Origin: Azorhizobium doebereinerae UFLA1-100
Lineage (GTDB): Bacteria; Pseudomonadota; Alphaproteobacteria; Rhizobiales; Xanthobacteraceae
Length of the DNA: 64,000 bases
Assembly (NCBI RefSeq): GCF_000473085.1
Contig: NZ_AXBA01000013.1
Span: 1-64,000 of the forward strand
Direction of reading: 5' to 3'
Made by a program: the position numbers and the translations under genes. Under the pieces are notes generated by a model. The model did no database searches and had not been told where the DNA came from. It saw only the letters and a list, made by a program, of their open reading frames with translations. This document shows, piece after piece, positions 8,064 to 21,432 of this stretch; the first letter of the stretch is position 1; each line of letters starts with the position of its first letter.

Positions 8064-8366
8064 TCAGTGGATGTCGAACAGTGCCGAGAAGCCGGAGATG
8101 TCGAAGACTTCCTGGATCTGGGGCTGAAGCGACTTCAGGCGCAGCTTGCGCTTGTGCGGGCTCATGGCCTTGCCCGCCACCAGCAGCGCACGCAGGCCGG
8201 AGGACGACACGTAATCCACCCCCGCCATGTCCACCACGATGGCGCCGTTGGAGGCCTTCACCGCCTCCAGCAGCTGGCCCTCGAACGGCTTGGCGTTGAG
8301 CGTGTCCAGCCGGCCGCTCACCTTGAGCACCGTGTCTTCGCCGCTCGCTTCGGTCTCGATCTGCAT
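8064..8366 (-). CDS. STAS-domain anti-sigma-factor antagonist (SpoIIAA/RsbV type)
   Basis: A 100-residue single STAS domain. The phosphorylation loop reads DYVSSSGLRALLVAGK (around residues 51-66). In SpoIIAA/RsbV a Ser here is phosphorylated by the partner kinase and dephosphorylated by a SpoIIE-type phosphatase. It is the distal gene of a minus-strand run: RsbW-type kinase (10554-10111), Na+/Pi transporter, then this gene after a 55-nt gap. A RsbU-type phosphatase lies at 18017-20062. Together these supply all three partner-switching roles. Confidence 0.9.
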   Translation of the reverse strand: MQIETEASGEDTVLKVSGRLDTLNAKPFEGQLLEAVKASNGAIVVDMAGVDYVSSSGLRALLVAGKAMSPHKRKLRLKSLQPQIQEVFDISGFSALFDIH

Positions 8367-8421: not shown

Positions 8422-10086
8422 TCAACCACGGTCCTCGACAGCTTCCACCCGCCCGTTCTGCGCCGCAGCCGGAACGGACCACCCCTCCGGCGAATTATCC
8501 TCATTCGCCCGGGGGCGCAACGCCAAGGAGAGCCGCCGCACCAGCCAGAGCGCCCGTTCGAACAGGCTGGTGGCCCGCATCAGCGTGCGCACCTCGCTTC
8601 CGCCCGTGGCGCAGGAGGCGGCCAGGTCGCGGCGGATGCGGTCCAGAAGGTCGCTGCGGTCCCCGGTCAGGGCGTTGAGCACCTCAAGGTCGCCCTCGCC
8701 GGCCTCCTCCGGCACGGCGTCGGCCAGCACCAGCAGCACCGCGCGCAGCGATTCGGACAGGTTGAACACCAGCGGCGGCAGCGGATGGAAGGCGTCCACC
8801 ACCGCGCCGAACTCGTGCAGCGTCTCCTGCAACGCCCGCAGCAGGTCCACCTGGGCCTGCGCCCGCAGCGCGAGGTCGAGATCCTCGCGCGTCAGGCGCT
8901 GGTCGATCAGCTCGGTCAGGAAGCGGTCGGTCGCGGCGGCGATGGCCTCGGCGCCCTGCCAGGCCGCCAGCCGGGCCTTGGGCTCGTCGTGCGCGCGCTG
9001 GTCGAGGTCCGGCAGGATCGTCGGCAGGCAGACCACCAGACGGGCGGTCTCGCGGGCCACTAGGTCGAGCGCGGTGGGCGGATCGCTCACCGCCCGGTCA
9101 TGGATGAAATGCGGCCGCGAGAGCTTGTCCTCGCGGGTGGCCGGGCTGAAGCGGACGGCGATGGCCTCGCTCAGCCCGATCAGCGTCACCACCACCAGCG
9201 CCCCGCTGGCCTGGAGGGCGAAGAACACCACCGAGAGCGCGAAGGCCGGGTCCCGCCCGCTGCCGATGCGGCCGAGCATCACGTCGAGATTGAGGCCCGC
9301 CGCCATCACCGCCAGGGCCGCGCCGCCGACGATCAGGCAGCCCATCGCCTTGACCTGGATGGCGCTGACGCACAATTGCCGCCCCGCCCCCCGCATGTCG
9401 CCGGCCGAGATCAGCGTGGCGAGGCCGGAGCCGAGATTGGCGCCGACCACCAGGAACATGCCGTCCCCCAGCCCCAGCACCTGCGCCTGCACCACCGCCA
9501 CGGCGAGGATGGTGGGCGTGGAGGCGGACTGGGTGATGAGCGCCAGCAGGCAGCCCAGGAAGAAGCCGCGCGTCGGGGTGAGCAGTTCCCCCACCACATG
9601 GGCCGCCTGCGAGAGGTCGAGCCCGGCGGGGGCGGACTTGATGAAGTCGAGCCCGAGGAACAGCAAAGCGAGCCCGAGCAGCACGCCCATCCACTCGCGC
9701 CAGCCGGTGCGCTTGTCCATGCGCAGGTGGAAGGCCAGGCCGACGAGCGCCACCAGATAGAGCACCGCCACCTTGAGGTTGACGCTGGCGATGAAGACGA
9801 GGGCCGAGGTGCCCACATTGGCGCCGGCCACCACCGGAATGGCGTCCCGGGTGGCGAACACGCCGCCGCGCACCAGATTGGCGCAGATCAGCGTCACCGC
9901 GTTGCTCGACTGGGTGATGGCCCCGGCGACCATGCCGCACAGCACCCCGGCCGGGCGCGAGCCGGTGGCCATGCGCAGCAGCCGGCGCACCCGCCGGCCC
10001 ATGACCTGCTGCAGGTGCGCGCCCATGAGCTTCAGCCCGACGAAAAGCAGCCCGAGGCCGGCGAGAAGCTGCGCAGCAATCAACAC
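8422..10086 (-). CDS. Na+/phosphate cotransporter family protein (NptA-like) with PhoU-like tail
   Basis: 554 residues starting at GTG (10084-10086). The membrane half (about 1-300) holds two inverted repeats, each with the Q-S motif of NaPi-II type symporters: GAITQSSNAVTL and LITQSASTPTI. The cytoplasmic half (about 330-530) is helical and resembles the PhoU-like domain often attached to these proteins. It lies 24 nt after the RsbW-type kinase gene and 55 nt before the STAS gene, so it is embedded inside a signalling operon. This suggests that phosphate uptake, or a related anion flux, is tied to partner switching, which is inference. Confidence 0.88.
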   Translation of the reverse strand: MLIAAQLLAGLGLLFVGLKLMGAHLQQVMGRRVRRLLRMATGSRPAGVLCGMVAGAITQSSNAVTLICANLVRGGVFATRDAIPVVAGANVGTSALVFIASVNLKVAVLYLVALVGLAFHLRMDKRTGWREWMGVLLGLALLFLGLDFIKSAPAGLDLSQAAHVVGELLTPTRGFFLGCLLALITQSASTPTILAVAVVQAQVLGLGDGMFLVVGANLGSGLATLISAGDMRGAGRQLCVSAIQVKAMGCLIVGGAALAVMAAGLNLDVMLGRIGSGRDPAFALSVVFFALQASGALVVVTLIGLSEAIAVRFSPATREDKLSRPHFIHDRAVSDPPTALDLVARETARLVVCLPTILPDLDQRAHDEPKARLAAWQGAEAIAAATDRFLTELIDQRLTREDLDLALRAQAQVDLLRALQETLHEFGAVVDAFHPLPPLVFNLSESLRAVLLVLADAVPEEAGEGDLEVLNALTGDRSDLLDRIRRDLAASCATGGSEVRTLMRATSLFERALWLVRRLSLALRPRANEDNSPEGWSVPAAAQNGRVEAVEDRG

Positions 10087-10110: not shown

Positions 10111-10554
10111 TCAGGCTGCCTTGTGGGGGTCGGCGATGAGGGTGAAACGATTTTCATCCCCCGCCCGCTCATAGTCCAGGCCGGCGAGGAAGTGCCGCAT
10201 GAGCTGGACGCCATGTCCGCCGATACGGGCTTCCTCCACCGAGGCCGCAACTTCCGGCTCCCCCACCGAGAGCGGATCAAAAGCCAAGCCATTGTCGATG
10301 ATGCGCAGCGCCACCCGGTCGGCCGGCAGGCGGAAATAATCCACCCGGATGCGCGGCGGATGCGCCAGGCCCTCGAAGCCGTAGGAGATGACGTTGGCGA
10401 GCGCCTCCTCCAGGCTGAGCTCCAGCCCGAAGCGCATGCGCTCCGGCCAGCCGTCCTGCTCGGCCAGTTCGTTGAGCCAGTCCGAAACGCGCGGCAGGTC
10501 GTCGATGCTGGGCGCCACGTCCAGGCTCGCGGCGGCTCTGTCAAATCCGCTCAT
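10111..10554 (-). CDS. RsbW/SpoIIAB-type serine kinase (HATPase_c_2 anti-sigma factor)
   Basis: 147 residues with the GHKL ATP-binding fold in its short RsbW form. The N box is SLEEALANVISYG, with the Glu and Asn needed for Mg-ATP. The G1 box is RIIDNGLAFDP and the G2-like loop is ARIGGHGVQLMRHF, followed by an ENRFTLI strand. In the family this kinase phosphorylates its STAS antagonist or binds a sigma factor or other target. The STAS partner is two genes downstream at 8064-8366. No sigma factor gene is adjacent, so the output target is unknown. Confidence 0.9.
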   Translation of the reverse strand: MSGFDRAAASLDVAPSIDDLPRVSDWLNELAEQDGWPERMRFGLELSLEEALANVISYGFEGLAHPPRIRVDYFRLPADRVALRIIDNGLAFDPLSVGEPEVAASVEEARIGGHGVQLMRHFLAGLDYERAGDENRFTLIADPHKAA

Positions 10555-10795: not shown

Positions 10796-11974
10796 TCATG
10801 CCGCGCCGCCCGCCGCCTGCCCCCGTCCGGCCCGCAGCCCCGCCGGCTCCGCCCGCTCCGGCGCCTCGTGATAGATGCGCCTGGCGCGATGCCCGGCCGC
10901 CACCATCACCGCATTGGGCGCGATACCGGCGGCGGCGGCGAGCTGGTCCACCGGCAGGCGGGGGCCGAACAGTTCCACCCGCGCGCCGGGCACCGCCACG
11001 CCTTCGGGCAGATGGCTCACGTCCACCGTCATCAGGCTCATGGCGACGCCGCCGACCACCGGCACCAGATGCCCGCCGATCCCGGCATGGGCCTGGTGGC
11101 GGAAGGAAAACGGCACGCCGTCGCCATAGCCGGCGGCCACATGGGCGAGGCGGCAGGCGTGGGCGGTGCGATAGGTGCCGCCATAGCCCACCTCGACGCC
11201 CGCCGGCACGTCCATGACGCGCAGGATGGGCGCCGACAGGCGGGCGGCCAGCTCGATGGGCTGCGGCCGGGCGGGCGTGGTCTCCACCCCGTAGATGGCG
11301 CTGCCGACGCGGGCATGGCTGGCGTGCCGCGCCGCCGGGCCGAACACCCCGGCGGAGGCGCAGAAGCTCAGGGTCGCCTCGGGCAGCGCCCCGGTCCAGG
11401 CCCGGAACCGGCGCCATTGCTGGGCGTTGCGGCGCGCGACGGGATCGGCGAACCGCGCCAGGTGGGTCACATAGGCGGCGATGCGCAGGCCGGAGAAGGC
11501 CGCCGGCGTGTCGCGCAGGCGCCGCACGTCGGCCAGCGAGAGGCCGAGGCGGGTCAGGCCGGTGTCGAACTGGATGGCGATGTCGAACGCCCCGCGCTGC
11601 GCCGCCTCGGCGCGGGCCACGGGCAGTTCGGCGGCATCGATCAGCACCGGCACCAGCCGGTGGGCGCGGAACTCGCCCGCCGGCGCGCCGGCAAGGCCGT
11701 GCAGCACGAAGACCCGCGCCTGCGGCGCCAGCGCCCGCACCGCCACGCCTTCCTCGAAGCTCACCACCCAGAAGTCGCGGCAGCCCAGCGACGCGAGCAG
11801 CGGCACGATGCGCGCCGCGCCGAAGCCATAGGCGTCCTGCTTGACCACCGCGCCCACCGTGGGGCCGGTGAAGACATCCCGAACCGTCTGCCAATTGCGC
11901 CGGATCGCGCCGAGATCGATCTCCAGGATCGCCTGGTCGCTGCTCGTCCCGCTGGCTCTATCCGCCGGACACAT
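10796..11974 (-). CDS. alr: Alanine racemase (PLP-dependent)
   Basis: 392 residues. The PLP lysine is in GAVVKQDAYGFGA near the N-terminus; most Alr proteins read VKA(N/D)AYGHG, so Lys-Gln-Asp and Phe are small deviations. The second-domain tyrosine region VGYGGTYRTA is present. The first ATG is at 11974, with a TTG at 11980 as alternative. It overlaps the end of the GNAT gene by 17 nt, so it is translated with it. Being encoded in a sensor/transport operon rather than near cell-wall genes suggests a special role, for example a D-amino acid used as signal or nutrient (inference). Confidence 0.9.
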   Translation of the reverse strand: MCPADRASGTSSDQAILEIDLGAIRRNWQTVRDVFTGPTVGAVVKQDAYGFGAARIVPLLASLGCRDFWVVSFEEGVAVRALAPQARVFVLHGLAGAPAGEFRAHRLVPVLIDAAELPVARAEAAQRGAFDIAIQFDTGLTRLGLSLADVRRLRDTPAAFSGLRIAAYVTHLARFADPVARRNAQQWRRFRAWTGALPEATLSFCASAGVFGPAARHASHARVGSAIYGVETTPARPQPIELAARLSAPILRVMDVPAGVEVGYGGTYRTAHACRLAHVAAGYGDGVPFSFRHQAHAGIGGHLVPVVGGVAMSLMTVDVSHLPEGVAVPGARVELFGPRLPVDQLAAAAGIAPNAVMVAAGHRARRIYHEAPERAEPAGLRAGRGQAAGGAA

Positions 11975-12650
11975 AGACAATCGCCGCCCCTTCCGCCCCC
12001 TGCCGCGCGGCCACGCCGCGCCAGCCGGCCTTCAGCAGCGCCACCTGTCCCTCGGCATCGGCGGGCGACATCAGCCGGGTGTCCCGTGGCGTGATGTCGG
12101 TTCCATCGCGAACCATCAGATAGCGCAGATGCCCCCCGTAATAAGGCACCAGCGCGCGAATGGCGAAGCCTTCCGACAGCAGATTGATCCAGCTCGCCGG
12201 ATTTCCGGGGGCGGAGGTGGCGAACAGGATGTCGCCCGGCTGCGCCAGGCGGACGCGGGCGGCGATCAGGGCGCGCTGAAGCTTCTGCCCGCGATGGGCC
12301 GGGGCCACCGAGGCGCCGGCGAGCTTGGCCACCGGCGCGTCGGCCGGGGCACCGATATGGGGGCGCGGATCGTCATAGGCCGGCAGCACGCGCTGGAGCA
12401 CGCCGTAGGCGACCAGCTCGGGCTCAGCGCCCGCCCGGTCCGCGCCATCCCCGTCCGCGAACACCCCGACCATCCGGCCGCGCCCGCCGAGGATGCCGGC
12501 GAAGAAATCCCGGGTCTCCGGCTTCACCACCTCGGGCCGGATGGCCTCGCCGATGGCCTGCCGGTGCAGCGCGTAGACCGCGTCGAGGTCCGGCGGGCCG
12601 AGCGCCCGCCAGGACAGCGCGTCCCCGGCGGCCGGGCCGTCGATGCTCAT
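11958..12650 (-). CDS. GNAT-family N-acetyltransferase
   Basis: 230 residues. The acetyl-CoA pyrophosphate loop is visible as ASVAPAHRGQKLQRALIAAR, corresponding to the V-x-P-x-x-R-G-x-x-x pattern of motif A. It is followed by a typical ATSAPGNPASWINLLSEGF segment, where a neighbour-of-substrate Asn and a late aromatic Tyr (VPYYGG) occur. The start overlaps the stop of the binding-protein gene as ATGA (12650-12647), indicating translational coupling. The substrate is unknown. Co-transcription with alr and a binding protein suggests an amino acid or related amine. Confidence 0.75.
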   Translation of the reverse strand: MSIDGPAAGDALSWRALGPPDLDAVYALHRQAIGEAIRPEVVKPETRDFFAGILGGRGRMVGVFADGDGADRAGAEPELVAYGVLQRVLPAYDDPRPHIGAPADAPVAKLAGASVAPAHRGQKLQRALIAARVRLAQPGDILFATSAPGNPASWINLLSEGFAIRALVPYYGGHLRYLMVRDGTDITPRDTRLMSPADAEGQVALLKAGWRGVAARQGAEGAAIVYVSGG

Positions 12651-13669
12651 CCCGTGACCAGCTCGGCGTAATTGAGCATGGCGATGGGCGGGTAGATGCC
12701 GAGCGACTTGGCGATACGCATGTTGATGATGAGCGAGAAGCGCTTCAGCGTCTCGATCGGGATCTTGCTCGCCGGGGTGCCGCGGGCGAGGATCTCCACC
12801 GCCTTGGTGCCGGCGAGCTGGCCGACGGAATAATAGCGGCTCACCAGCCCCACCAGCGCGCCGCCCTCGCGGATCGCCAGCTCGGCGGCGCCGAAGGTGG
12901 GCAGCCCGGCGGCCAGCGCCGCCGGCGTCACCCGGTCGTAGATCGTCCCGAGGAAGGTGTCGGGCAGCAGATAGAGCCAGTCCGCCTTGTCGGCGCGGAG
13001 CTGGGCGACCATGTCCTCCACGCCCTCGGCGGTGGGACGGCCGCTGGCGTCGTTCTTGAACGGGCGGGCCAGCACCTTGGCGCCCATGCCGTCGCAGAAG
13101 GCCTTCACCTCGCGGACGATGACGTCGGAATTCTGCTCGCTGGTGGAATAGAGGATGCCGACGGTGGAGAAGTCCATGAAGGACTGCATCGCCTTCATCT
13201 GCACGTCGGTGGGCACCACGTGCACCGCGCCGGTCACGTTGCGGCCGGGGGCGGCGAAGCTCGGGGCGATGCGCGCCTGCACCGGCGCGGCCACCAGGGC
13301 GAACACCACCGGGATGTCGCGGATGAACTTGGGGTCGGTCGAATCGAACGGTCCCGCCACCCCGAGGGTGAGCGGCGTGCCCCAAGTGTAGATGAGGTCC
13401 GGCTTCAGCGTGGCGAGGTCGGCGATCATCGACGGCAGGTTGGCGATGTCCCGCCGCGCGTCGCGCGAGATGATCTCGGTCTTCAGCCCGGCGGTGTCCA
13501 GCAGGTCGCGGAAGCCGCGCTCCACGTCGGTCTCGCCGCGGAAGGTGAGCATCAGGATCTTGTAGGTCTTGCCCGTGTCGGCGGACAGGCCGCGCGGCAG
13601 CGCCAGCGACGCGCCCGCGCCGACGCCGAGGGACAGAAGCGAACGACGATCCAGCATGGGCCTCCTCAT
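12647..13669 (-). CDS. ABC-type substrate-binding protein, TrpX-like (ABC_sub_bind family)
   Basis: 340 residues. The N-terminus MLDRRSLLSLGVGAGASLAL is a Tat-like twin-arginine signal with an A-rich core. The mature part has two alpha/beta lobes typical of periplasmic binding proteins of the TrpX/YufN-like group: YKILMLTFRGETDVERGF, PDLIYTWGTPLTLGV, TVGILYSTSEQNSD and an AELAIREGGALVGL segment. The start overlaps the MFS gene stop as ATGA (13669-13666). No ABC permease or ATPase gene is nearby, so the protein may serve as a ligand receptor for the neighbouring membrane sensors rather than for import (inference). Confidence 0.88.
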   Translation of the reverse strand: MRRPMLDRRSLLSLGVGAGASLALPRGLSADTGKTYKILMLTFRGETDVERGFRDLLDTAGLKTEIISRDARRDIANLPSMIADLATLKPDLIYTWGTPLTLGVAGPFDSTDPKFIRDIPVVFALVAAPVQARIAPSFAAPGRNVTGAVHVVPTDVQMKAMQSFMDFSTVGILYSTSEQNSDVIVREVKAFCDGMGAKVLARPFKNDASGRPTAEGVEDMVAQLRADKADWLYLLPDTFLGTIYDRVTPAALAAGLPTFGAAELAIREGGALVGLVSRYYSVGQLAGTKAVEILARGTPASKIPIETLKRFSLIINMRIAKSLGIYPPIAMLNYAELVTG

Positions 13670-15642
13670 GGCACCGAAGCCTCCTCGGGAGCGGCCGGCG
13701 ACCCGCGGTCGCGGCGCGCCGGCACGCGGCCGGACAGGATGAATGCCGCCGCGCCGAATACCACTAGGCCACCCACGGTCATCATGGAAGTTACGAATCC
13801 GACACTTCCCAAAAGGAAGCCGGCGGCGGCGGGGCCGACCGCATTGCCGCTGCGCTCCACCAGCCGGAACAGGCCGAGCACCCCGGCCGAATGGCCGCCC
13901 GGCACATGGCGGGCGCTGTCGGCGACCAGGGCGGACTGCGGCGCGATCGACATCGCCTGGCCGATGCCGAGCAGCGCCAGCACCAAAGCGAGGATCACCG
14001 GCGAGGTGCCGAAGGCCACCAGCAGCGCCCCCGCCCCGGCCAGCGTGCCGCCGGCGGCGACGAAGCCGGCGCGCGCCGACCAGCGGTCGGCCAGCGCCGC
14101 GAACAGCGGCACGCCGAGCACCATGATGACCGGGTAGATCATCTGCAGCCGGCCGACGGCGGCCGAGGAGAAGCCCTCGCGCTGGAGCTCCACCGGGATC
14201 AGGTAGAAGCACAGCGCGGCGAGGATGAACTTGGCCGGGAAGGCGCAGCCGAACAGCAGCGCGGCGAGGCGCGGCGCCTGGATGGCGGCCTTCAGGTCGG
14301 TGAGGCCGAGGCCGTGCGCGCCGCCGCGCCGCTGCGAGGCCGGCAGGCTCAGCCCGGCCAGCACCAGCGCCAGGGCGGCGAGGCCGCCGGAGAACAGGAA
14401 GGCGATGTTGCCGCCCAGCCGGTCGCCGATCACGCCGCCGATGGGCGGCCCGCACAGCGCCGCCACCATGATGGCGCGCACGAAGACCGCGAGCCCCTCG
14501 GCCCGCTCGGAGGGGGCGGAGCGATCCACCACGTGGCCCTGGGCGGAGACGAACACCAGAGCGTAGCCCACCGCCGACAGCACGCGGGCGCCGAGGAAGA
14601 CGAAATAGCTCCCCGTCAGCCCCGACAGCACGTAGCCGCAGGCGGCGAGCCCGGCGCCGAGCATGAAGCCGCCGCGCCGGCCGATGCGCTCGGACAGCGC
14701 GGCGAACGGCAATTGGCAGAGCGCCACCGCCGCCATGAAGGCGACGATGGGCAGGCTGATGGCCACGTCCGGGCTGATCGGCAGGCTGGCCGGGGCGATC
14801 GACTGCACGTAGCGCGGCAGGAACGGGCGGGTCAGTTCCTCCGCCAGCATGAACAGGAACAGCGCCGGGCGGACCACCGCCGCCGCCTGGTTGCCGACGC
14901 TGTGGACCGAGCCGAGCCCGGTCTTGGCCGCCACCGCGTCCAGCGTCGCCAGCGCCCGGGCATCGCCCCGCCGCTCGGCCTCGTCGCGGGCGAAGGCGTG
15001 GCGCGAGGCCAAGGCGTTCAGCTGCCGGTCGATGGGGGCGATGAGGCGGTCGCCGTCGGCGCCCTCATGCCGCACCAGCCGGCCGCGCGCCAGGTCGCGC
15101 ACCCGCGCCTCGACCCCGGCCAGCACGCTGACGCCGCGCGCGCCGACCACCAGGGCCACCAGTTCCAGCGCGATCAGCAGGGCGACGACGCCGATGAAGG
15201 CGACATCGACGAGCACCGCCGCCACCTGCTCGGAAATGATGCTCGGGTCGATGAAGATGACGATGTCGCCGAGGCTCGGCCCATCCTCCACCGCCACCGG
15301 GACGCGGACCTGCGGCCAGTCGGGCTGCTCGCGCTCGCCGGACTGGAACAGCACGGTGCCGCCCTGCGTCAGGCGGATCTCGGACAGTTCGCTGTTCTGG
15401 CTGCGCAGATCCTCGAAATAGGCGGGCACGCCGGCCAGCTTCTCCATCGGGATGCCGGCCTCCACCGCGGTCTCCACCAGCGCGGCGGCGGAGCGGCCGA
15501 CCGATTCGGCCTTGGCGACGATGGTCGGGACGATGGTGCGCACGGCGGCGCGCTGCGCGCCCCAGGCGATCATGCCGAGCGCGGCGCACAGGATGACGAT
15601 GATGGCGGCGGAGATGCCGCCGCGCAGGCCGATGCCGATCAC
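13666..15642 (-). CDS. Periplasmic-sensor domain fused to an MFS transporter
   Basis: 658 residues, far longer than the usual ~400 of MFS proteins. Residues 10-30 are a membrane helix. Residues 31-140 form a cache/PDC-like extracytoplasmic domain (GIPMEKLAGVPAYFEDLRSQ, then IRLTQGGTVLFQSGE). Residues 143-167 are a second helix and 168-240 a HAMP-like helical linker. From about 250 a complete 12-helix MFS permease follows, with motif A as LSERIGRRGGFMLG near 317-330. The GTG start (15642-15640) overlaps the stop of the upstream sensor gene as GTGA. The sensor part resembles the plus-strand sensor at 17199-18017. Such a design would let a periplasmic signal gate or report transport (inference). 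Confidence 0.85.
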   Translation of the reverse strand: MIGIGLRGGISAAIIVILCAALGMIAWGAQRAAVRTIVPTIVAKAESVGRSAAALVETAVEAGIPMEKLAGVPAYFEDLRSQNSELSEIRLTQGGTVLFQSGEREQPDWPQVRVPVAVEDGPSLGDIVIFIDPSIISEQVAAVLVDVAFIGVVALLIALELVALVVGARGVSVLAGVEARVRDLARGRLVRHEGADGDRLIAPIDRQLNALASRHAFARDEAERRGDARALATLDAVAAKTGLGSVHSVGNQAAAVVRPALFLFMLAEELTRPFLPRYVQSIAPASLPISPDVAISLPIVAFMAAVALCQLPFAALSERIGRRGGFMLGAGLAACGYVLSGLTGSYFVFLGARVLSAVGYALVFVSAQGHVVDRSAPSERAEGLAVFVRAIMVAALCGPPIGGVIGDRLGGNIAFLFSGGLAALALVLAGLSLPASQRRGGAHGLGLTDLKAAIQAPRLAALLFGCAFPAKFILAALCFYLIPVELQREGFSSAAVGRLQMIYPVIMVLGVPLFAALADRWSARAGFVAAGGTLAGAGALLVAFGTSPVILALVLALLGIGQAMSIAPQSALVADSARHVPGGHSAGVLGLFRLVERSGNAVGPAAAGFLLGSVGFVTSMMTVGGLVVFGAAAFILSGRVPARRDRGSPAAPEEASVP

Positions 15643-16304
15643 GGCCGCCCCCCCGCCGGGCTGGCGTCGCGCTTCAGCACGGCGGCATGGGCGGCGTCGA
15701 CGCTCGCCAGCGCGGCGCGGGCGGGCTCCGGCCAGGAGCCGGGGTCCGCCGCCCGCCGCAGCGAGCGCCTGAGGCTGGCGGCCAGCAGCAGGCCGACCGC
15801 GATGGTGGCGAGCGCCGCCGCCGCCAGGGTCGGGATGGCGATGAAGCGCAGGTCCGCGGCCAGCGCCTCGGCGCCGGCGGCCAGGATCACCGGGTCGTAA
15901 TGCACGATCACCCGGCCGATCCGCGCCTCCAGGTCGTTCTCCATCACCCGCGACACGCTGTCGGCGGGGTGCGCGGGTTCGTCACGCCCGGCGCGGTCCG
16001 GATCGCTGCTGAACAGCACGTGGCCGCGCTCGTCCGCCACGTCGATGGCGCGGATGGCGGTATCGATTCGCGCCTCCCGCCGCAGCAGGTCCGGCAGTGT
16101 CTGCTGCGCCGGCAGGGCGATGCCCAGGCCCGACGCCAGCTCCGCCGTGGCGCCGATTCGCTGCGCGGTGATGGCGAAGCGCGCCTCCACCGCGGCACGG
16201 TTGGCGTTGAGCAGGGTGGCGTAGGCGAAATAGGCGCCGAAGGCCACGCAGGCCGCGGCAATCATGGCGAACAGGGCGATCAGGACGGCAGTGGTACGGG
16301 TCAT
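15639..16304 (-). CDS. Membrane sensor-like protein without output domain (sensor A)
   Basis: 221 residues from ATG 16304; a GTG at 16331 is possible. Two membrane helices (about 5-28 and 150-172) flank an extracytoplasmic domain of about 120 residues. This domain contains GIALPAQQTLPDLLRREARI and AIDVADERGHVLFSSD, a pattern common in the sensor regions of histidine kinases and chemoreceptors. Only about 45 polar residues follow the second helix, so there is no kinase, phosphatase or cyclase domain. It is the first gene of the minus-strand operon, overlapping the sensor-MFS gene by 4 nt. Its domain is most like sensor B on the other strand. Confidence 0.7.
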   Translation of the reverse strand: MTRTTAVLIALFAMIAAACVAFGAYFAYATLLNANRAAVEARFAITAQRIGATAELASGLGIALPAQQTLPDLLRREARIDTAIRAIDVADERGHVLFSSDPDRAGRDEPAHPADSVSRVMENDLEARIGRVIVHYDPVILAAGAEALAADLRFIAIPTLAAAALATIAVGLLLAASLRRSLRRAADPGSWPEPARAALASVDAAHAAVLKRDASPAGGRP

Positions 16305-16465
16305 TTCGGCGCGGCTCGGGGGGCAGGTCACTGTGTCAGGCGACGCATGCGATGGAAAGCGGTTTGGTGGGGAGTGGCTTTTTTGACCCGGTTCCGGTTT
16401 TTGCTCTGGTTTGGCGACGAGCGTGCGGCTAACGTCCCGCCGGCCTGCCTATTACCGTCTGCTTC
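16305..16465. promoter_or_regulatory. Divergent promoter region between the two sensor operons
   Basis: 161 bp between sensor A and sensor B. It contains a T-rich patch with TTGACC at 16383-16388 on the plus strand as a possible -35 element, but a convincing -10 element was not found. No GGAAC-N16/17-CGTT (EcfG-type) element is seen on either strand. Confidence 0.45.
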
Positions 16466-17212
16466 ATGACTTTTGTCGGTCGACTCGCATTATTCGTTGC
16501 CGCAGCTCTGCTCGCGACCCTGCTGGTCGTGGCGACGGGGGCCTTTTTCGCGAGTCAAAAAGTCACCGCCGACATCGAGCGGGCCCGGGTATCCCACCTG
16601 CTGGGCAGCCTGCGCAGCGCCACCGAGGCCAACCTCGCCATCGGCCTGGCGCTCGACCAGGTGTCCTCGCTCCAGGCGCGCATCGAGCGCGAGACGGCGG
16701 CGGACGCGGCGGTGCAGGCCATCGACGTGTTCAACGCCCAGGGCCGCTCGGTCTACAGCACCGATCGCGGCGCGGTGGGCGAGGAGGTGCCGCCCGCCTG
16801 GACCACCCAGATGCGCGACGACGGCATCTGGACCGTCCCCGGCCGCGGCGAGACGGTCTACGTCACCCGCTTCGACAACGACCTGGGCTTTGCCGGCGGC
16901 ATCGCCGTGTCGGTCTCCGACGACGCCCGCGCCAACCGCAACGAGCGCATGCTGGTGGACCTCGCCTGGCGCACGCTGGCCGTCGGAGGCGCCGGCATCC
17001 TCGCCGCCGGCCTCCTGGCCTTCGCCTTCGGCGCGCTGATGACCCGGCCGTTCGGCAACGCGGCGCGCATCCTGCGCGGCGAGGCGGCGTCCGCCCCCGC
17101 CGGCCGCGGCCTCGAACAGCTGGCGCAGCAGACCCGGCGCACCTGGACCCGCAGCGAGGAGCGCATCGACGCCGGCCTCAAGCAGCTGGAGGCGCTCGAT
17201 GACGGGATCTGA
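16466..17212 (+). CDS. Membrane sensor-like protein without output domain (sensor B)
   Basis: 248 residues with membrane helices near 5-27 and 172-192 and an extracytoplasmic domain between them. The domain carries ANLAIGLALDQVSSLQARIE and VQAIDVFNAQGRSVYSTD, which aligns by eye with sensor A (AIRAIDVADERGHVLFSSD). After the second helix there is only a short basic/helical tail (about 55 residues). The last 14 nt overlap the start of sensor C. It is the first gene of the plus-strand operon ending in the phosphatase, so it probably forms a complex with it (inference). Confidence 0.7.
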   Translation: MTFVGRLALFVAAALLATLLVVATGAFFASQKVTADIERARVSHLLGSLRSATEANLAIGLALDQVSSLQARIERETAADAAVQAIDVFNAQGRSVYSTDRGAVGEEVPPAWTTQMRDDGIWTVPGRGETVYVTRFDNDLGFAGGIAVSVSDDARANRNERMLVDLAWRTLAVGGAGILAAGLLAFAFGALMTRPFGNAARILRGEAASAPAGRGLEQLAQQTRRTWTRSEERIDAGLKQLEALDDGI

Positions 17213-18017
17213 CGAGGCCCTGCCGCGCGGCCGCGCCCGGCTGCTCACCGGCCTGTTCGCCTTCCTGCTCACGCTGCTGGTCGGCGGCGTCGGCGGCGCC
17301 GTGCTGGTGTCCGGCTTCAAGGCCAGCGTCGAGGAGACCGCCCGGCGCGACGTCACCGTGATCGGCGGCTCGCTCGCCCGCGCCCTCGCCATGCAGTTCG
17401 AGAAGGCGGCGCGGTTCGGCATCCCGCTCAAGCTCATTCCCGGCGTCGAGGGCTATCTCGCCCAGACCCTGAACCAGACGCCGGGCATCGCCCGCATCGT
17501 GGTGCGCGGCCCGGACGGGCGCGAGGTGCGCAGCGCCATCGGGCCGCTGGCCGGCACCGACACGGTGTCCGCGCCGATCGCCGTGGATGGCCTCGCCCTC
17601 GGGCAGGTGGACGTGACCACCAGCCCGCTCGCCTTCAGCGGCACCTTCGCCGCCCTGACCCTCCAGGTGGCCGGCGCCGTGCTGGCGTTCGCCGCCGTGG
17701 CCGGCATCGCCTCCGGGCTGGTGGCCGGCGGCGCCCTGGAACGGCGGCGGCAGCGCCTCGCCGCCGCCATGGCGCACAATGTGGCCGGCGAGTTGGACGG
17801 AGGGCCGCAATCGGCCGCCATCGGCCGCTCGCCGGTGGCGCAGGCGTTCGAGGCTTTGTCCCGCGGCGCCCGCCGGGTCGGCGACAAATGGGCCGCCTTC
17901 CAGGCCTATGCGGAAGAATTGCTGGCGGTTGATTTCGACGGCCGGCTGCGGCCGGAGGTGGAACGCATCCGGCGCGAGGCGCTGCCGCGCGGCAGCCAGA
18001 GCGAGCGGGGCAGCTGA
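17199..18017 (+). CDS. Membrane sensor-like protein without output domain (sensor C)
   Basis: 272 residues, with membrane helices near 15-38 and 148-175. The extracytoplasmic part contains FGIPLKLIPGVEGYLAQTL and ARIVVRGPDGREV, followed by APIAVDGLALGQVDV. This matches the N-terminal sensor of the MFS fusion (GIPMEKLAGVPAYFEDL, then VPVAVEDGPSLGDIVI) more than sensors A or B. The cytoplasmic tail of about 95 residues is helical with no recognisable enzyme domain. It overlaps sensor B by 14 nt and shares TGATG (18015-18019) with the phosphatase gene. Confidence 0.7.
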   Translation: MTGSDEALPRGRARLLTGLFAFLLTLLVGGVGGAVLVSGFKASVEETARRDVTVIGGSLARALAMQFEKAARFGIPLKLIPGVEGYLAQTLNQTPGIARIVVRGPDGREVRSAIGPLAGTDTVSAPIAVDGLALGQVDVTTSPLAFSGTFAALTLQVAGAVLAFAAVAGIASGLVAGGALERRRQRLAAAMAHNVAGELDGGPQSAAIGRSPVAQAFEALSRGARRVGDKWAAFQAYAEELLAVDFDGRLRPEVERIRREALPRGSQSERGS

Positions 18018-20062
18018 TGCTTCTGCGCACCCGCATCACCCTTCTCGTCGCCGCCGGCTTCGTCGTGCTGGTGGGCTGCTTCCTTGGCCTCCTCGTGCTG
18101 CGCGACCGCATGGAGGAGGACCGCCTGTCCAATGTGGTGATCCTCGGCCAGGGCGCGCTGTGGCGCGAGATCGTCACCGTCCAGTCCGCCACCCTGGAAA
18201 AGAGCCTCGACACCGTCGCCGGCTCGGCCAGCCTGATGGCCTCCCTGCGCAGCACCGACCGCGGCGCGACGCTGGCGGCGCTCAACGGGCTGGACATCTT
18301 CTCCGACACCACCCCGCCGATCTATGAGGTGGTCGCCGAGGACCGCGAGGTGCTGGTGGCCAACGGCACGCCGGGGCGCGGGCTGCTGGACGCGGACAGC
18401 ATCGACCGGGTATTCGCCGGGCAGAATGTCTCCGGCCTGCGCCAGGTCTCGGCCAACCAGATCCTGGTGGTGGCGGCGCGGCGGGTCACCTTCTCCGACG
18501 GCGAGCAGGCCATGCTGGTGCTCGGCCGCGACGCCGGGGCGGCGGTGCGCCGCTTCGCCGCCAGCATCGAGGCCACCACCACCCTGATCACCCTGCGCGG
18601 CGTGCTCGCCGCCACCACCAATGCGGAGGCCTGGCGCAAGGCCGGCCTCGTCATCTCGCCGCGCCAGCCGCTGCGCGAGACGGTGGCGCTGGACGGCCGC
18701 ATCTTCAGCGTCACCAGCATCCCGGTTCCCGATGTCAGCGGCGGCACCGTGGGCGCGCTGGTGAGCATGGTGGACAATACCGAGGGCATCACCAACGCCC
18801 AGGGCATCCGCCGCGCCGGCATCGCCGTCAGCCTCGGGCTGTCGCTCATCGGCATCATCGGCCTCAACATGTTCCTGTGGTACAGCTTCCGGCCGCTGGA
18901 ACGGGCCATCGACGTGCTCCAGGCGCTGTCGCGCGGCGACACCTCGGTGACGCTGGAGCACCAGGGCAAGGACGAGATCGGCCGCATCGCCGCCGCCGTG
19001 GTGGCGTTCCGGGCCAATGCCCAGGCGCTGGCCGAGACCCGCCGCCAGCGCGAGCGGGTGCGCCGCCGCCAGGAAGTGGTGATCTCCGCCGAATTGCAGG
19101 CCCTGGCCGACGCCATCGACCCCACCGACCGCGAGGAAGTGCTGGCGCTGCTGCGCTCCGACACCGATACCGGCGAGGACGAGCTGCGCCGCGTCGCCCG
19201 CGTGCTGCACGATCTGTCGCGGCGCATCGTCGAGCAGCACACCCGGCTGTCCGCCATGGTGGTGGAACTGCGCGAGGCCCTGATCACCAAGACCAAGCTG
19301 GCCGGTCTCCAGCAGGAGCTGGAGATCGCCGCGCAGGTGCAGCTCGCCATCCTGCCGAAGGAATTCCCGCCCAATCCGCGCATCGCCGTGCACGGCCACA
19401 TGACCCCGGCCCGCGAGGTCGGCGGCGATTTCTACGACTACTTCCTGATCGACGACCAGACGCTCGGCTTCGTGGTCGCCGACGTGTCCGGCAAGGGCGT
19501 GCCGGCGGCGCTGTTCATGGCCATCTCGCGCACCCTGCTGCGCTCGACCGCGCTGTTCGAGCGCTCGCCGTCCAGCAGCGTCCGCCGCCTCAACGACCTG
19601 CTGGCGCTGGAAAACGAGCAGATGCTGTTCGTGACCCTGTTCTACGGCGTCATCGACCTGGAGAGCGGCAAGGTCTCCTACGTCAACGCCGGCCACAATT
19701 TGCCGTACAAGATCACCCAGGCCAACGCCGTCTCCATCGTGCCCTCCACCCGCGGCATGGCGGTGGCGGTGATGGAGGGCTTCGTCTACCAGGAAGGCGA
19801 GCTGACCCTGTCGCCGGGCGACACGCTGTTCCTCTACACCGACGGCGTGACCGAGGCGTTCGACGTCGACGGCAACGCCTATGGCGACGACCGGCTGGCG
19901 CACCTGCTGACGGAGGACGCCGCCCACTGGCCGGTGCCGGAGACGCCGCAGCGCGTGCTGGCCTCGGTGCGCGCCTTCGAGCGCGGCGCGCCGCAGGCGG
20001 ACGACATCACCTGCCTGACCCTGCGCTATTTCGGCGGCAGCGCCCGGCGCCACAGCCTGTAG
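18017..20062 (+). CDS. Sensor-HAMP-SpoIIE (RsbU-type) serine phosphatase
   Basis: 681 residues. The first membrane helix is at about 7-28, followed by a large extracytoplasmic sensor (30-265), a second helix (267-288), HAMP (289-342, SFRPLERAIDV... KDEIGRIAAA) and a helical linker (343-440). A PP2C-type phosphatase of the SpoIIE/RsbU group follows (about 455-680). All metal-binding motifs are intact: VGGDFYDYF (near 468-476), VADVSGKGVPAAL (487-499), LFLYTDGVTEAFD and ADDITCLTL. Such enzymes dephosphorylate STAS antagonists; the likely substrate is the STAS protein at 8064-8366. The start shares TGATG with sensor C. Confidence 0.95.
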   Translation: MLLRTRITLLVAAGFVVLVGCFLGLLVLRDRMEEDRLSNVVILGQGALWREIVTVQSATLEKSLDTVAGSASLMASLRSTDRGATLAALNGLDIFSDTTPPIYEVVAEDREVLVANGTPGRGLLDADSIDRVFAGQNVSGLRQVSANQILVVAARRVTFSDGEQAMLVLGRDAGAAVRRFAASIEATTTLITLRGVLAATTNAEAWRKAGLVISPRQPLRETVALDGRIFSVTSIPVPDVSGGTVGALVSMVDNTEGITNAQGIRRAGIAVSLGLSLIGIIGLNMFLWYSFRPLERAIDVLQALSRGDTSVTLEHQGKDEIGRIAAAVVAFRANAQALAETRRQRERVRRRQEVVISAELQALADAIDPTDREEVLALLRSDTDTGEDELRRVARVLHDLSRRIVEQHTRLSAMVVELREALITKTKLAGLQQELEIAAQVQLAILPKEFPPNPRIAVHGHMTPAREVGGDFYDYFLIDDQTLGFVVADVSGKGVPAALFMAISRTLLRSTALFERSPSSSVRRLNDLLALENEQMLFVTLFYGVIDLESGKVSYVNAGHNLPYKITQANAVSIVPSTRGMAVAVMEGFVYQEGELTLSPGDTLFLYTDGVTEAFDVDGNAYGDDRLAHLLTEDAAHWPVPETPQRVLASVRAFERGAPQADDITCLTLRYFGGSARRHSL

Positions 20063-20220
20063 GCCGGCCGGCGGCAACCACCACATTACCGTCTGTCCTG
20101 CGGCGCCGGCGGCGGGCCATGTGCGTGGAGCATTGCTCCCGCCGTTTCCGCGCGGCGCGAACCAGGGTACTAACCCTCAAGCCGGCCCGCGAATACGAGA
20201 CCGGCGTCCGGAGAAGCGCC

Positions 20221-21432
20221 GTGTCCGTAGCCGCAGCCCGCCTGCCCGCCCCTTCGCGCGAGTTCGCCACCATCTCCGCCGTGGGCACGGCCCATTTCAC
20301 CAGCCATCTGCTCCAGCTCTCCTTCGCGCCCTTGTTCATCGCCATGCGCGCGGACCTCGGCGTGTCCTTCACCGAGCTGGGCCTGCTGCTCTCGGTCTTC
20401 TATCTCGCCTCCGGCTCCGGCCAGGTGCTGGCGGGCATCCTGGTGGACCGCTTCGGCGCCCACCGGCTGCTGCTGGGCGGCATGGCGCTGCACGGCGGCG
20501 CCATCGCCGCCGTGGGGCTGGCGCCGACCTATTGGCTGATGCTGCCGCTGGTGCTGCTGGCCGGGCTCGGCAATGCGGTCTACCACCCGGCGGACCTCTC
20601 CATCCTCAGCCACCGCATCTCGCCGGAGCGGCTCGGCCGGGCGTTCGCCGCCCATGTGATCGCCGGCAACTTCGGCTTCGCAGCCTCGCCCCTGGTCTCC
20701 GGCGCGCTGGCGCTGGCGTTCGGCTGGCGGGTGGCGCTCACCACCATGGGCCTCGCCGCGCTGGGGCTGACCCTGGCGCTGGTCCTGGTCCGCCCGGTGC
20801 TGCACAGCCCCACCAGCCACGAGCACGCCAAGGCGGGCGGCGAGACCGCCCCGCCGCTCTCCTTCACCCGCGTGCTGATGATGCCCGTGGTGTTGCTGGC
20901 CTTCCTCTATTTCTTCCTGTCCTCGCTGGCGCTGGTGGGGATCCAGAACTTCAGCATCGCGGCGTTGCAGGAGGGCTTCCTGTTCTCGGCCGGCTTCGCC
21001 ACGCTGACCATCACCGCCTACCAGCTCGCCACCGCCGCCGGCGTGCTGGCCGGCGGGGTGCTGGCCGACCGCGCCACCCACCACCACCGCATCGCCATGA
21101 GCGGGCTCGCCGCCGCCGCCGTCTGCGCGGCGCTGATCCCGCTCGGCGCGCCGCCGGCCTTCGTCACCGCCGGGCTGCTGATCGGCATCGGCCTCGCCAT
21201 CGGGCTGTCCATGCCCTCGCGCGACGTGCTGGTGCGCCGCGCGGCGCCCAAGGGGGCGACGGGCAAGGTCTTCGGCGTGGTCTATTCGGGCTTCGACATC
21301 GGCTCGCTGGGGGCCCCGCTCGTCTATGGCGCGCTGATGGACCACCATTTCTCGCGGATGGTGTTCCTGGCCGCGGCGGTGCCGCTCTGCCTCGCCATCT
21401 TCACCGCGCTCGGCGTCAAGCGGGCCTACTGA
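20221..21432 (+). CDS. MFS transporter (fosmidomycin-resistance/Fsr-like)
   Basis: 403 residues from GTG 20221, with ggaga (20210-20214) at 6-nt spacing. Twelve hydrophobic segments are seen. The motif A equivalent is GILVDRFGAHRLLLGG after helix 2, and the GNAVYHPADLSILS segment is typical of the Fsr-like MFS subfamily of drug or small-molecule exporters. It begins 158 nt after the phosphatase gene and has its own ribosome site, so it may be co-transcribed or independent. The substrate is unknown. Confidence 0.88.
   Translation: MSVAAARLPAPSREFATISAVGTAHFTSHLLQLSFAPLFIAMRADLGVSFTELGLLLSVFYLASGSGQVLAGILVDRFGAHRLLLGGMALHGGAIAAVGLAPTYWLMLPLVLLAGLGNAVYHPADLSILSHRISPERLGRAFAAHVIAGNFGFAASPLVSGALALAFGWRVALTTMGLAALGLTLALVLVRPVLHSPTSHEHAKAGGETAPPLSFTRVLMMPVVLLAFLYFFLSSLALVGIQNFSIAALQEGFLFSAGFATLTITAYQLATAAGVLAGGVLADRATHHHRIAMSGLAAAAVCAALIPLGAPPAFVTAGLLIGIGLAIGLSMPSRDVLVRRAAPKGATGKVFGVVYSGFDIGSLGAPLVYGALMDHHFSRMVFLAAAVPLCLAIFTALGVKRAY

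Follow-up and report, generated by a model that had tools for sequence, protein, structure and literature searches.

A Cache-type sensor, a HAMP-like linker and an MFS transporter in one protein of Azorhizobium doebereinerae and its relatives

The window analysed here, a stretch of 64,000 nt, carries a minus-strand gene (SMFS, 13666-15642) whose 658-residue product combines a Cache-type sensor, a HAMP-like linker and an antiporter-type MFS transporter in one chain, and this fusion is real. Based on its gene neighbours and its relatives, we lean towards reading SMFS as a receptor-coupled transporter, part of a sensor-gated complex that would feed signalling.

One chain with a sensor half and a transporter half

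The SMFS frame runs from a GTG at 15642 to 13666 as 658 uninterrupted codons, with the terminal stop as the sole stop. Its start forms a GTGA overlap of four bases with the upstream gene SA, and its end forms an ATGA overlap of four bases with the downstream gene SBP; given such overlaps at both ends, the long frame with the GTG start is most likely the gene. Residues 1-185 (15088-15642) comprise a first transmembrane helix, a single-Cache-like domain and a second transmembrane helix (TM2), with D146 and E160 conserved, residues 186-255 (14878-15087) are a degenerate HAMP-like linker, and residues 256-658 (13669-14877) form a 12-helix, antiporter-like MFS. The sequence-only reading had proposed a transmembrane helix, a Cache-like domain, another helix and then a full 12-helix MFS, and AlphaFold2, the MFS_1 profile and residue conservation all agree with that layout. 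It had also suggested structure prediction as a check, and both halves were supported, with a pLDDT of 90.7 for the front end and of 89.5 for the full-length protein (pTM 0.84).

That two genes were joined here by a sequencing or assembly error can practically be dismissed. The same fusion is found in independent genomes, including those of named Azorhizobium, Xanthobacter and Aquabacter isolates, and residues on either side of the junction are conserved, namely E160 in TM2 (glutamate in 52 of 54 aligned family members) and R258 at the start of the MFS (kept in 51/54). We found nothing in favour of an artefact.

The sensor half was recognised from structure. Pfam gave no match to residues 1-255, and Pfam and NCBIfam together gave nothing significant for the N-terminus; weak N-terminal matches among the relatives (e.g. 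DUF4191 and HemY_N) are to unrelated families and were judged to be chance. The AlphaFold2 model of residues 1-241, for which 25 locus-derived sequences were used as input, has a transmembrane helix at 3-61, a small alpha/beta domain with a four-stranded sheet at 86-131, a second transmembrane helix at 133-185 and two linker helices at 198-225 and 228-240. In a Foldseek search with this model, the only match below 0.001 was the integrative model of WalK (9a5d, E 2.9e-4, residues 1-229 aligned), which spans TM-Cache-TM-HAMP, all others having E values of at least 0.017. VIA-align matched the front end to 4onx (Z 12.0, rmsd 3.0 over 96 residues), WalK 4ywz (Z 10.3, rmsd 2.7 over 110 residues) and DcuS 3by8 (Z 9.9, rmsd 2.7 over 104 residues). 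These structure matches are extracytoplasmic Cache/PAS sensors of kinases and chemoreceptors, and by the model and the matches together SMFS has an extracytoplasmic Cache/PAS fold (residues about 30-145) between two transmembrane helices, as Cache receptors do. Pfam sCache_3_2 was detected in 5 of 54 family members (best E 4.1e-6), with no match in the SMFS of the window. The front end is also homologous to a separate sensor of the same locus, SC (hhalign 99.2%, E 2.8e-19, 138 columns), a resemblance that the sequence-only reading had already pointed out.

The transporter half has both an MFS_1 match (E 3.9e-44, best stretch residues 260-577) and the 12-helix fold, and is an MFS on these grounds. 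Of the domain search that had been proposed as a further check, it was therefore the MFS that Pfam returned, and neither Cache nor HAMP was found by Pfam in SMFS itself. Foldseek with the full-length model matched VMAT2 (E 3.2e-12), MdfA and NorA best and SotB lower, and a profile search returned the same kind of transporter with YajR first, the nearest solved structures being YajR, VMAT, EmrB, NorA, SotB and MdfA. Antiporter motif C in TM5 is of the G-P-x2-G-G type. SMFS has GPPIGG at residues 398-403, and a loose regular expression matched 46 of 53 relatives, in at least one of them (L062) out of place. No MFS subfamily model of NCBIfam scored above its cut-off on SMFS. The transporter half is probably antiporter-like, of the drug:H+ antiporter type. 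SMFS has the MFS fold in common with YajR (3wdo) and the other DHA1 antiporters VMAT, NorA, MdfA and SotB. YajR too has an extra soluble domain, but this is C-terminal and cytoplasmic and not a periplasmic sensor.

The linker between the two halves is most likely a diverged HAMP, judging from profile comparisons within the family. Pfam found no HAMP in the SMFS of the window, and the window-clade linker, set directly against the HAMP of the locus's own phosphatase, PP2C, gave no significant match (2.2%). By profile comparison, however, window-clade linkers match those found elsewhere in the family (89.7%, E 1.8e-6), and the linkers of members outside the window clade match HAMP (96.7%, E 3.4e-10). 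With E 0.01 as the threshold, 11 of 54 members have a Pfam HAMP between TM2 and the MFS (best E 3.8e-11), and in an Azospirillum brasilense member it lies at residues 184-233 with a score above the Pfam cut-off (E 4e-9). It is these two-step profile matches, the 11 members and the A. brasilense HAMP that make a diverged HAMP probable in SMFS, where the first HAMP helix would probably start at about residue 167, within the TM2 helix. The HAMP-like linker of the sequence-only reading is thus supported by way of its relatives, direct comparison having failed to show HAMP in SMFS itself. In Burkholderiales the linker has about 30 residues, which makes a full HAMP impossible there, and together with the failure of Pfam on the window linker this means that HAMP coupling is not universal in the family.

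A family of fusions with a second Cache module

Relatives occurred in 8 of 61 near genomes, 24 of 289 genomes in the class and 9 of 398 across the phylum, as well as in 9/247 and 2/194 genomes of two orders chosen around other carriers; these searches used E 1e-60 and scored the best few candidates per genome, so members may be missed. Named carriers include Azorhizobium, Xanthobacter, Aquabacter, Comamonas and Rhodocyclaceae bacteria. A plasmid search returned Azospirillum records only, none of which covered 80% of the query. For the comparison of loci we collected 61, of which L131 and L132 were re-fetched flanks, leaving 59 usable. Left out were the close Xanthobacter loci L014, L016, L017, L020, L021 and L031, the truncated L026, and the Azospirillum loci L036, L038-L040, L042, L043, L045 and L046, and the long stretches cover only part of the matches in the class sample. 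Many of the loci with the fusion are closely related, L012 and L068 being congeners of the window, so the counts that follow are not independent.

A look at homologues had also been proposed as a check, and the identical Cache-MFS fusion is present in 53 of the 59 usable relatives. Five of the others (L037, L041, L069, L110 and L111; three Azospirillum, two others) have a four-TM stub in place of the Cache domain, with about four N-terminal hydrophobic helices kept by hydropathy, and one (L044) has a broken MFS frame. These five retain the MFS, which can therefore exist without a sensor, and the Cache-less protein in Azospirillum lipoferum is encoded next to feoAB. They could favour SMFS being an ordinary exporter on which the Cache domain is a structural add-on for folding, targeting or dimerisation, with no sensing. 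We consider this quite unlikely, because nearly all of the relatives keep Cache, accompanied by another Cache module and, for the most part, by SBP and genes for signalling.

The second Cache module of the window is SA (15639-16331, minus strand), a membrane protein of 230 aa whose gene is the upstream partner in the four-base overlap. On the plus strand lie SB (16466-17212), an SA homologue (hhalign 99.6%, E 2e-24), and SC (17199-18017), which is homologous to the front end of SMFS. hhalign sorts these sensors into two types, A with SA and SB, and C with SC and the front end of SMFS. They are arranged as two pairs in parallel order, SA-SMFS and SB-SC, and after the second pair comes the gene for PP2C (18017-20062, plus strand), a membrane HAMP-SpoIIE phosphatase (PF07228 E 8e-50, PF00672 E 5.8e-10). 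hhalign shows no relation between the periplasmic domain of PP2C and the other sensors (0.3 to 6%). In loci of Burkholderiales and Rhodocyclaceae a single ORF encodes both SA and SMFS; the chain mostly has about 780-800 residues, and its MFS is preceded by two Cache modules. Overall, profiles place a second Cache module immediately upstream of SMFS or within its own chain in 50 of 53 loci; in the other three (L033, L112 and L128) a tandem module was read by eye in the sequence.

Binding protein, partner switching and type VI genes

What had escaped the sequence-only reading is that the fusion belongs to a larger unit, which also takes in another Cache protein, an orphan binding protein and a set of partner-switching genes and, in other genomes, a type VI operon. 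Directly downstream of SMFS in the window, and on the same strand as SA, SMFS and the genes that follow, is SBP (12647-13669, minus strand), which encodes a PF04392 periplasmic binding protein (E 6.3e-28). Its nearest solved structures are 6hni, 3lft and 3lkv, of which 6hni and 3lft bind aromatic amino acids, and among NCBIfam models it comes closest to TrpX (E 1.4e-29, below the cut-off). Among the scanned annotated genes of the locus there is no ABC permease or ATPase beside it, as an ABC importer would have. SBP lies directly downstream of SMFS in 45 of 53 loci and anywhere in the fetched stretch in 49.

Further along the minus strand are a conserved GNAT-like protein (11958-12650), a weakly supported label (NCBIfam E 0.034, below cut-off, and no Pfam match), and RAC (10796-11980), an alanine-racemase-family protein (PF01168 E 3.6e-42, PF00842 E 2.1e-27). 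Where racemase and GNAT-like genes occur, a secrete-and-sense loop is possible: the two enzymes would make a small molecule, such as a modified amino acid or one in the D form, for export by the MFS, and SBP and the Cache pairs would sense it outside the cell. The resemblance of the MFS to exporters and antiporters and the below-cut-off TrpX match of SBP fit this, as do the ten loci with a racemase and the 29 with a GNAT-like gene among 53. As a general explanation we find it unlikely, since no racemase is called in the remaining 43 loci, the GNAT label is weak, and neither gene is called in the seven type VI-linked loci L058, L060, L061, L062 and L107-L109.

The minus strand continues with a HATPase that is a candidate RsbW-like kinase (10111-10554; PF13581 E 1.1e-15), a Na/Pi-cotransporter-like protein (8422-10086; PF02690 E 2.4e-38) and an anti-sigma-antagonist-like STAS protein (8064-8366; PF01740 E 1.1e-17). 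Together with PP2C, the window thus holds in one locus the SpoIIE phosphatase, STAS and HATPase genes of an Rsb-type partner-switching set; scanning the locus gave no recognised sigma factor. The three genes are likewise co-encoded in Rsb/SiaA-type systems, but here they are joined by a sensor-fused MFS, a PF04392 binding protein and Cache pairs, and PP2C scores 72.3 bits against the NCBIfam SiaA model, whose cut-off is 700. The fetched stretches of the 53 loci contain PP2C in 34 cases, HATPase in 28, STAS in 24 and type VI genes in nine.

In five relatives (L058, L060, L107, L108 and L109) a tandem-sensor MFS and SBP lie between ClpV/TssG/TssF and FHA/TssK/TssL/TssM, within the core type VI operon, as accessory genes of that system do; the type VI gene identities come from Pfam on selected genes, mainly of L058. 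PP2C, STAS and HATPase were not recognised in the fetched stretches of these five loci. In L061 VgrG and DUF6931 come after the module, and TssB and TssC lie beyond them; L062 likewise has VgrG and DUF6931 after the module, and a TssC match. L125 has HATPase, STAS, phosphatase, SBP, tandem MFS, FHA, DUF6931, VgrG and ClpV within 20 kb, and in L120 the MFS, SBP and phosphatase genes are accompanied by a ClpV-like one. In the window itself there is no match to any type VI query. In its genome TssK is on one contig (C2) and the window on another (C3), so SMFS does not lie in a type VI cluster there.

Across genomes, we used TssK alone (PF05936) as the marker of co-occurrence, with Fisher tests that ignore shared ancestry. 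Among the 61 relatives TssK is present in 7/8 carriers and 4/53 non-carriers (p 5.7e-6). The difference holds for genomes of 4 Mb or more (7/8 versus 3/27, p 1.3e-4), for one genome per genus (5/6 versus 4/53, p 1.4e-4), in the class sample (10/24 versus 40/265, p 0.003) and in the class sample with strong TssK matches only (6/24 versus 8/265, p 3.4e-4). The control gene TrbI gave a weak association in the same 61 genomes (5/8 versus 13/53, p 0.042), which was not significant after genus collapse. TssK is absent in carrier G040 and in 14 of the 24 class-level carriers, and with so many carriers lacking it, type VI secretion is a recurrent partner and not a universal output.

Which way the signal may run

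In ordinary receptors the slot after Cache-HAMP is held by a kinase or methyl-accepting module, and in SMFS it is occupied by the MFS. WalK, DcuS and CitA share the TM-Cache-TM front end with SMFS, and in WalK a HAMP follows, but their output is a kinase, in the place where SMFS has its MFS. Transporter-sensor fusions are known, with the transporter as input: PMC8534201 describes KsAmt5 as an Amt-kinase fusion whose transporter domain serves as the sensing input to the kinase. Like SMFS it has a transporter fold and a signalling part in one chain; SMFS differs in having a Cache-HAMP-like sensor before the MFS and no kinase, so that the receptor comes first and the transporter sits at the output position. 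The same source describes the BceAB-BceS flux sensor, in which an ABC transporter works with a separate histidine kinase that has no extracytoplasmic domain, and thus a transporter is complexed with a membrane sensor, as may be so in SMFS, without being fused to it. In the literature covered, including the accessible parts of PMC10924467, PMC8534201 and PMC3999984, we found no Cache- or HAMP-fused MFS, and no link of SpoIIE partner switching or of a sensor-MFS fusion with a type VI cluster; most subscription papers lie outside this search, so absence is unproven.

These precedents lend weight to the main rival of our reading, a transceptor or flux sensor in which the MFS is the input. The attached and neighbouring Cache pairs would then read its flux or its substrate-dependent conformation and signal to the phosphatase, so that information runs from MFS to sensor. 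That a transporter can serve as input is established for other families (KsAmt5 and BceAB-BceS, PMC8534201), and the partner-switching set is in the same locus. The two options of the sequence-only reading, ligand-gated transport and a transporter as signal input, would both fit the architecture. Still, we regard it as somewhat unlikely: the MFS is placed after Cache-HAMP, which is an output position, SMFS has no cytoplasmic signalling domain and none was recognised by Pfam in SA, SB and SC, and the five modules inside type VI operons come without recognised partner-switching genes in their fetched stretches.

As a receptor-coupled transporter, SMFS might work as follows. SA and the sensor half of SMFS would form a hetero-dimer whose four membrane helices bundle on one MFS. 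This would explain how a receptor of the normally dimeric Cache type could drive a monomeric transporter, and would also account for the tandem fusion of the two sensors elsewhere in the family. SBP, alone or loaded with ligand, may dock on this Cache pair, and the resulting change would pass through TM2, with E160, and the linker into the MFS and alter its transport cycle. The parallel SB-SC pair could hand the same kind of information to the SpoIIE phosphatase, which would act on the switch made of STAS and HATPase. Where the module lies in a type VI operon, the transporter complex might be an input to the secretion machine, or serve it. More broadly, we tentatively suggest that there may be a class of signal-gated secondary transporters, in which an SBP-activated Cache hetero-dimer gates the MFS through a HAMP switch and which partner switching and type VI secretion have co-opted as their environmental input, although the odds are on balance against this full form.

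Given that the fusion recurs in many proteobacteria, where its neighbours are a binding protein and genes for signalling and where it sometimes lies within the operon of the contact-dependent type VI machine, it may tie transport to the sensing of the surroundings. If the output position of the MFS means gating, receptor signalling could directly switch secondary transport. If the links by type VI operon and co-occurrence are true, the module would be a concrete candidate for the trigger of type VI secretion system assembly, a question that has long been open.

Transport and partner-switching genes

In the window, a gene for a Na/Pi-cotransporter-like protein (8422-10086) lies between the HATPase and STAS genes, a position that is conserved in the Xanthobacteraceae loci. 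Downstream of the phosphatase gene there is a second MFS gene (20119-21432), whose weak NCBIfam matches include UhpC with an E-value of 2.2e-12, below the cut-off. Among the loci that we fetched from other genomes, several from Xanthobacter have a second STAS gene (L014:13847-14146, Pfam E-value 1.7e-14) occupying the place that the racemase gene has in Azorhizobium. In genome G003, the phosphatase gene is split over two frames (L067:5487-7432), perhaps because of a sequencing error.

MFS relatives without the Cache domain

Some close MFS relatives have lost the Cache domain and kept about four N-terminal transmembrane helices (L069:9722-11239, L037, and L041, all from Azospirillum, and also L110 and L111). 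The Cache-less relative in A. lipoferum adjoins feoA/feoB, and neither a PF04392 binding protein nor a phosphatase was called near it.

Type VI secretion clusters of relatives

In the type VI operons that contain the sensor-MFS module (L058, L060, L107, L108, and L109), we noted a second small binding protein between the PF04392 binding protein and the FHA gene; in L058 it is an SBP_bac_3 protein (L058:7581-8306), with equivalents in the other four. Several genomes, one of them from a congener of the window's source strain, have type VI clusters in which VgrG is followed by, or is near, DUF6931 genes (L061:13850-14428, L062, L125:14275-14853, and L139:10585-11130).
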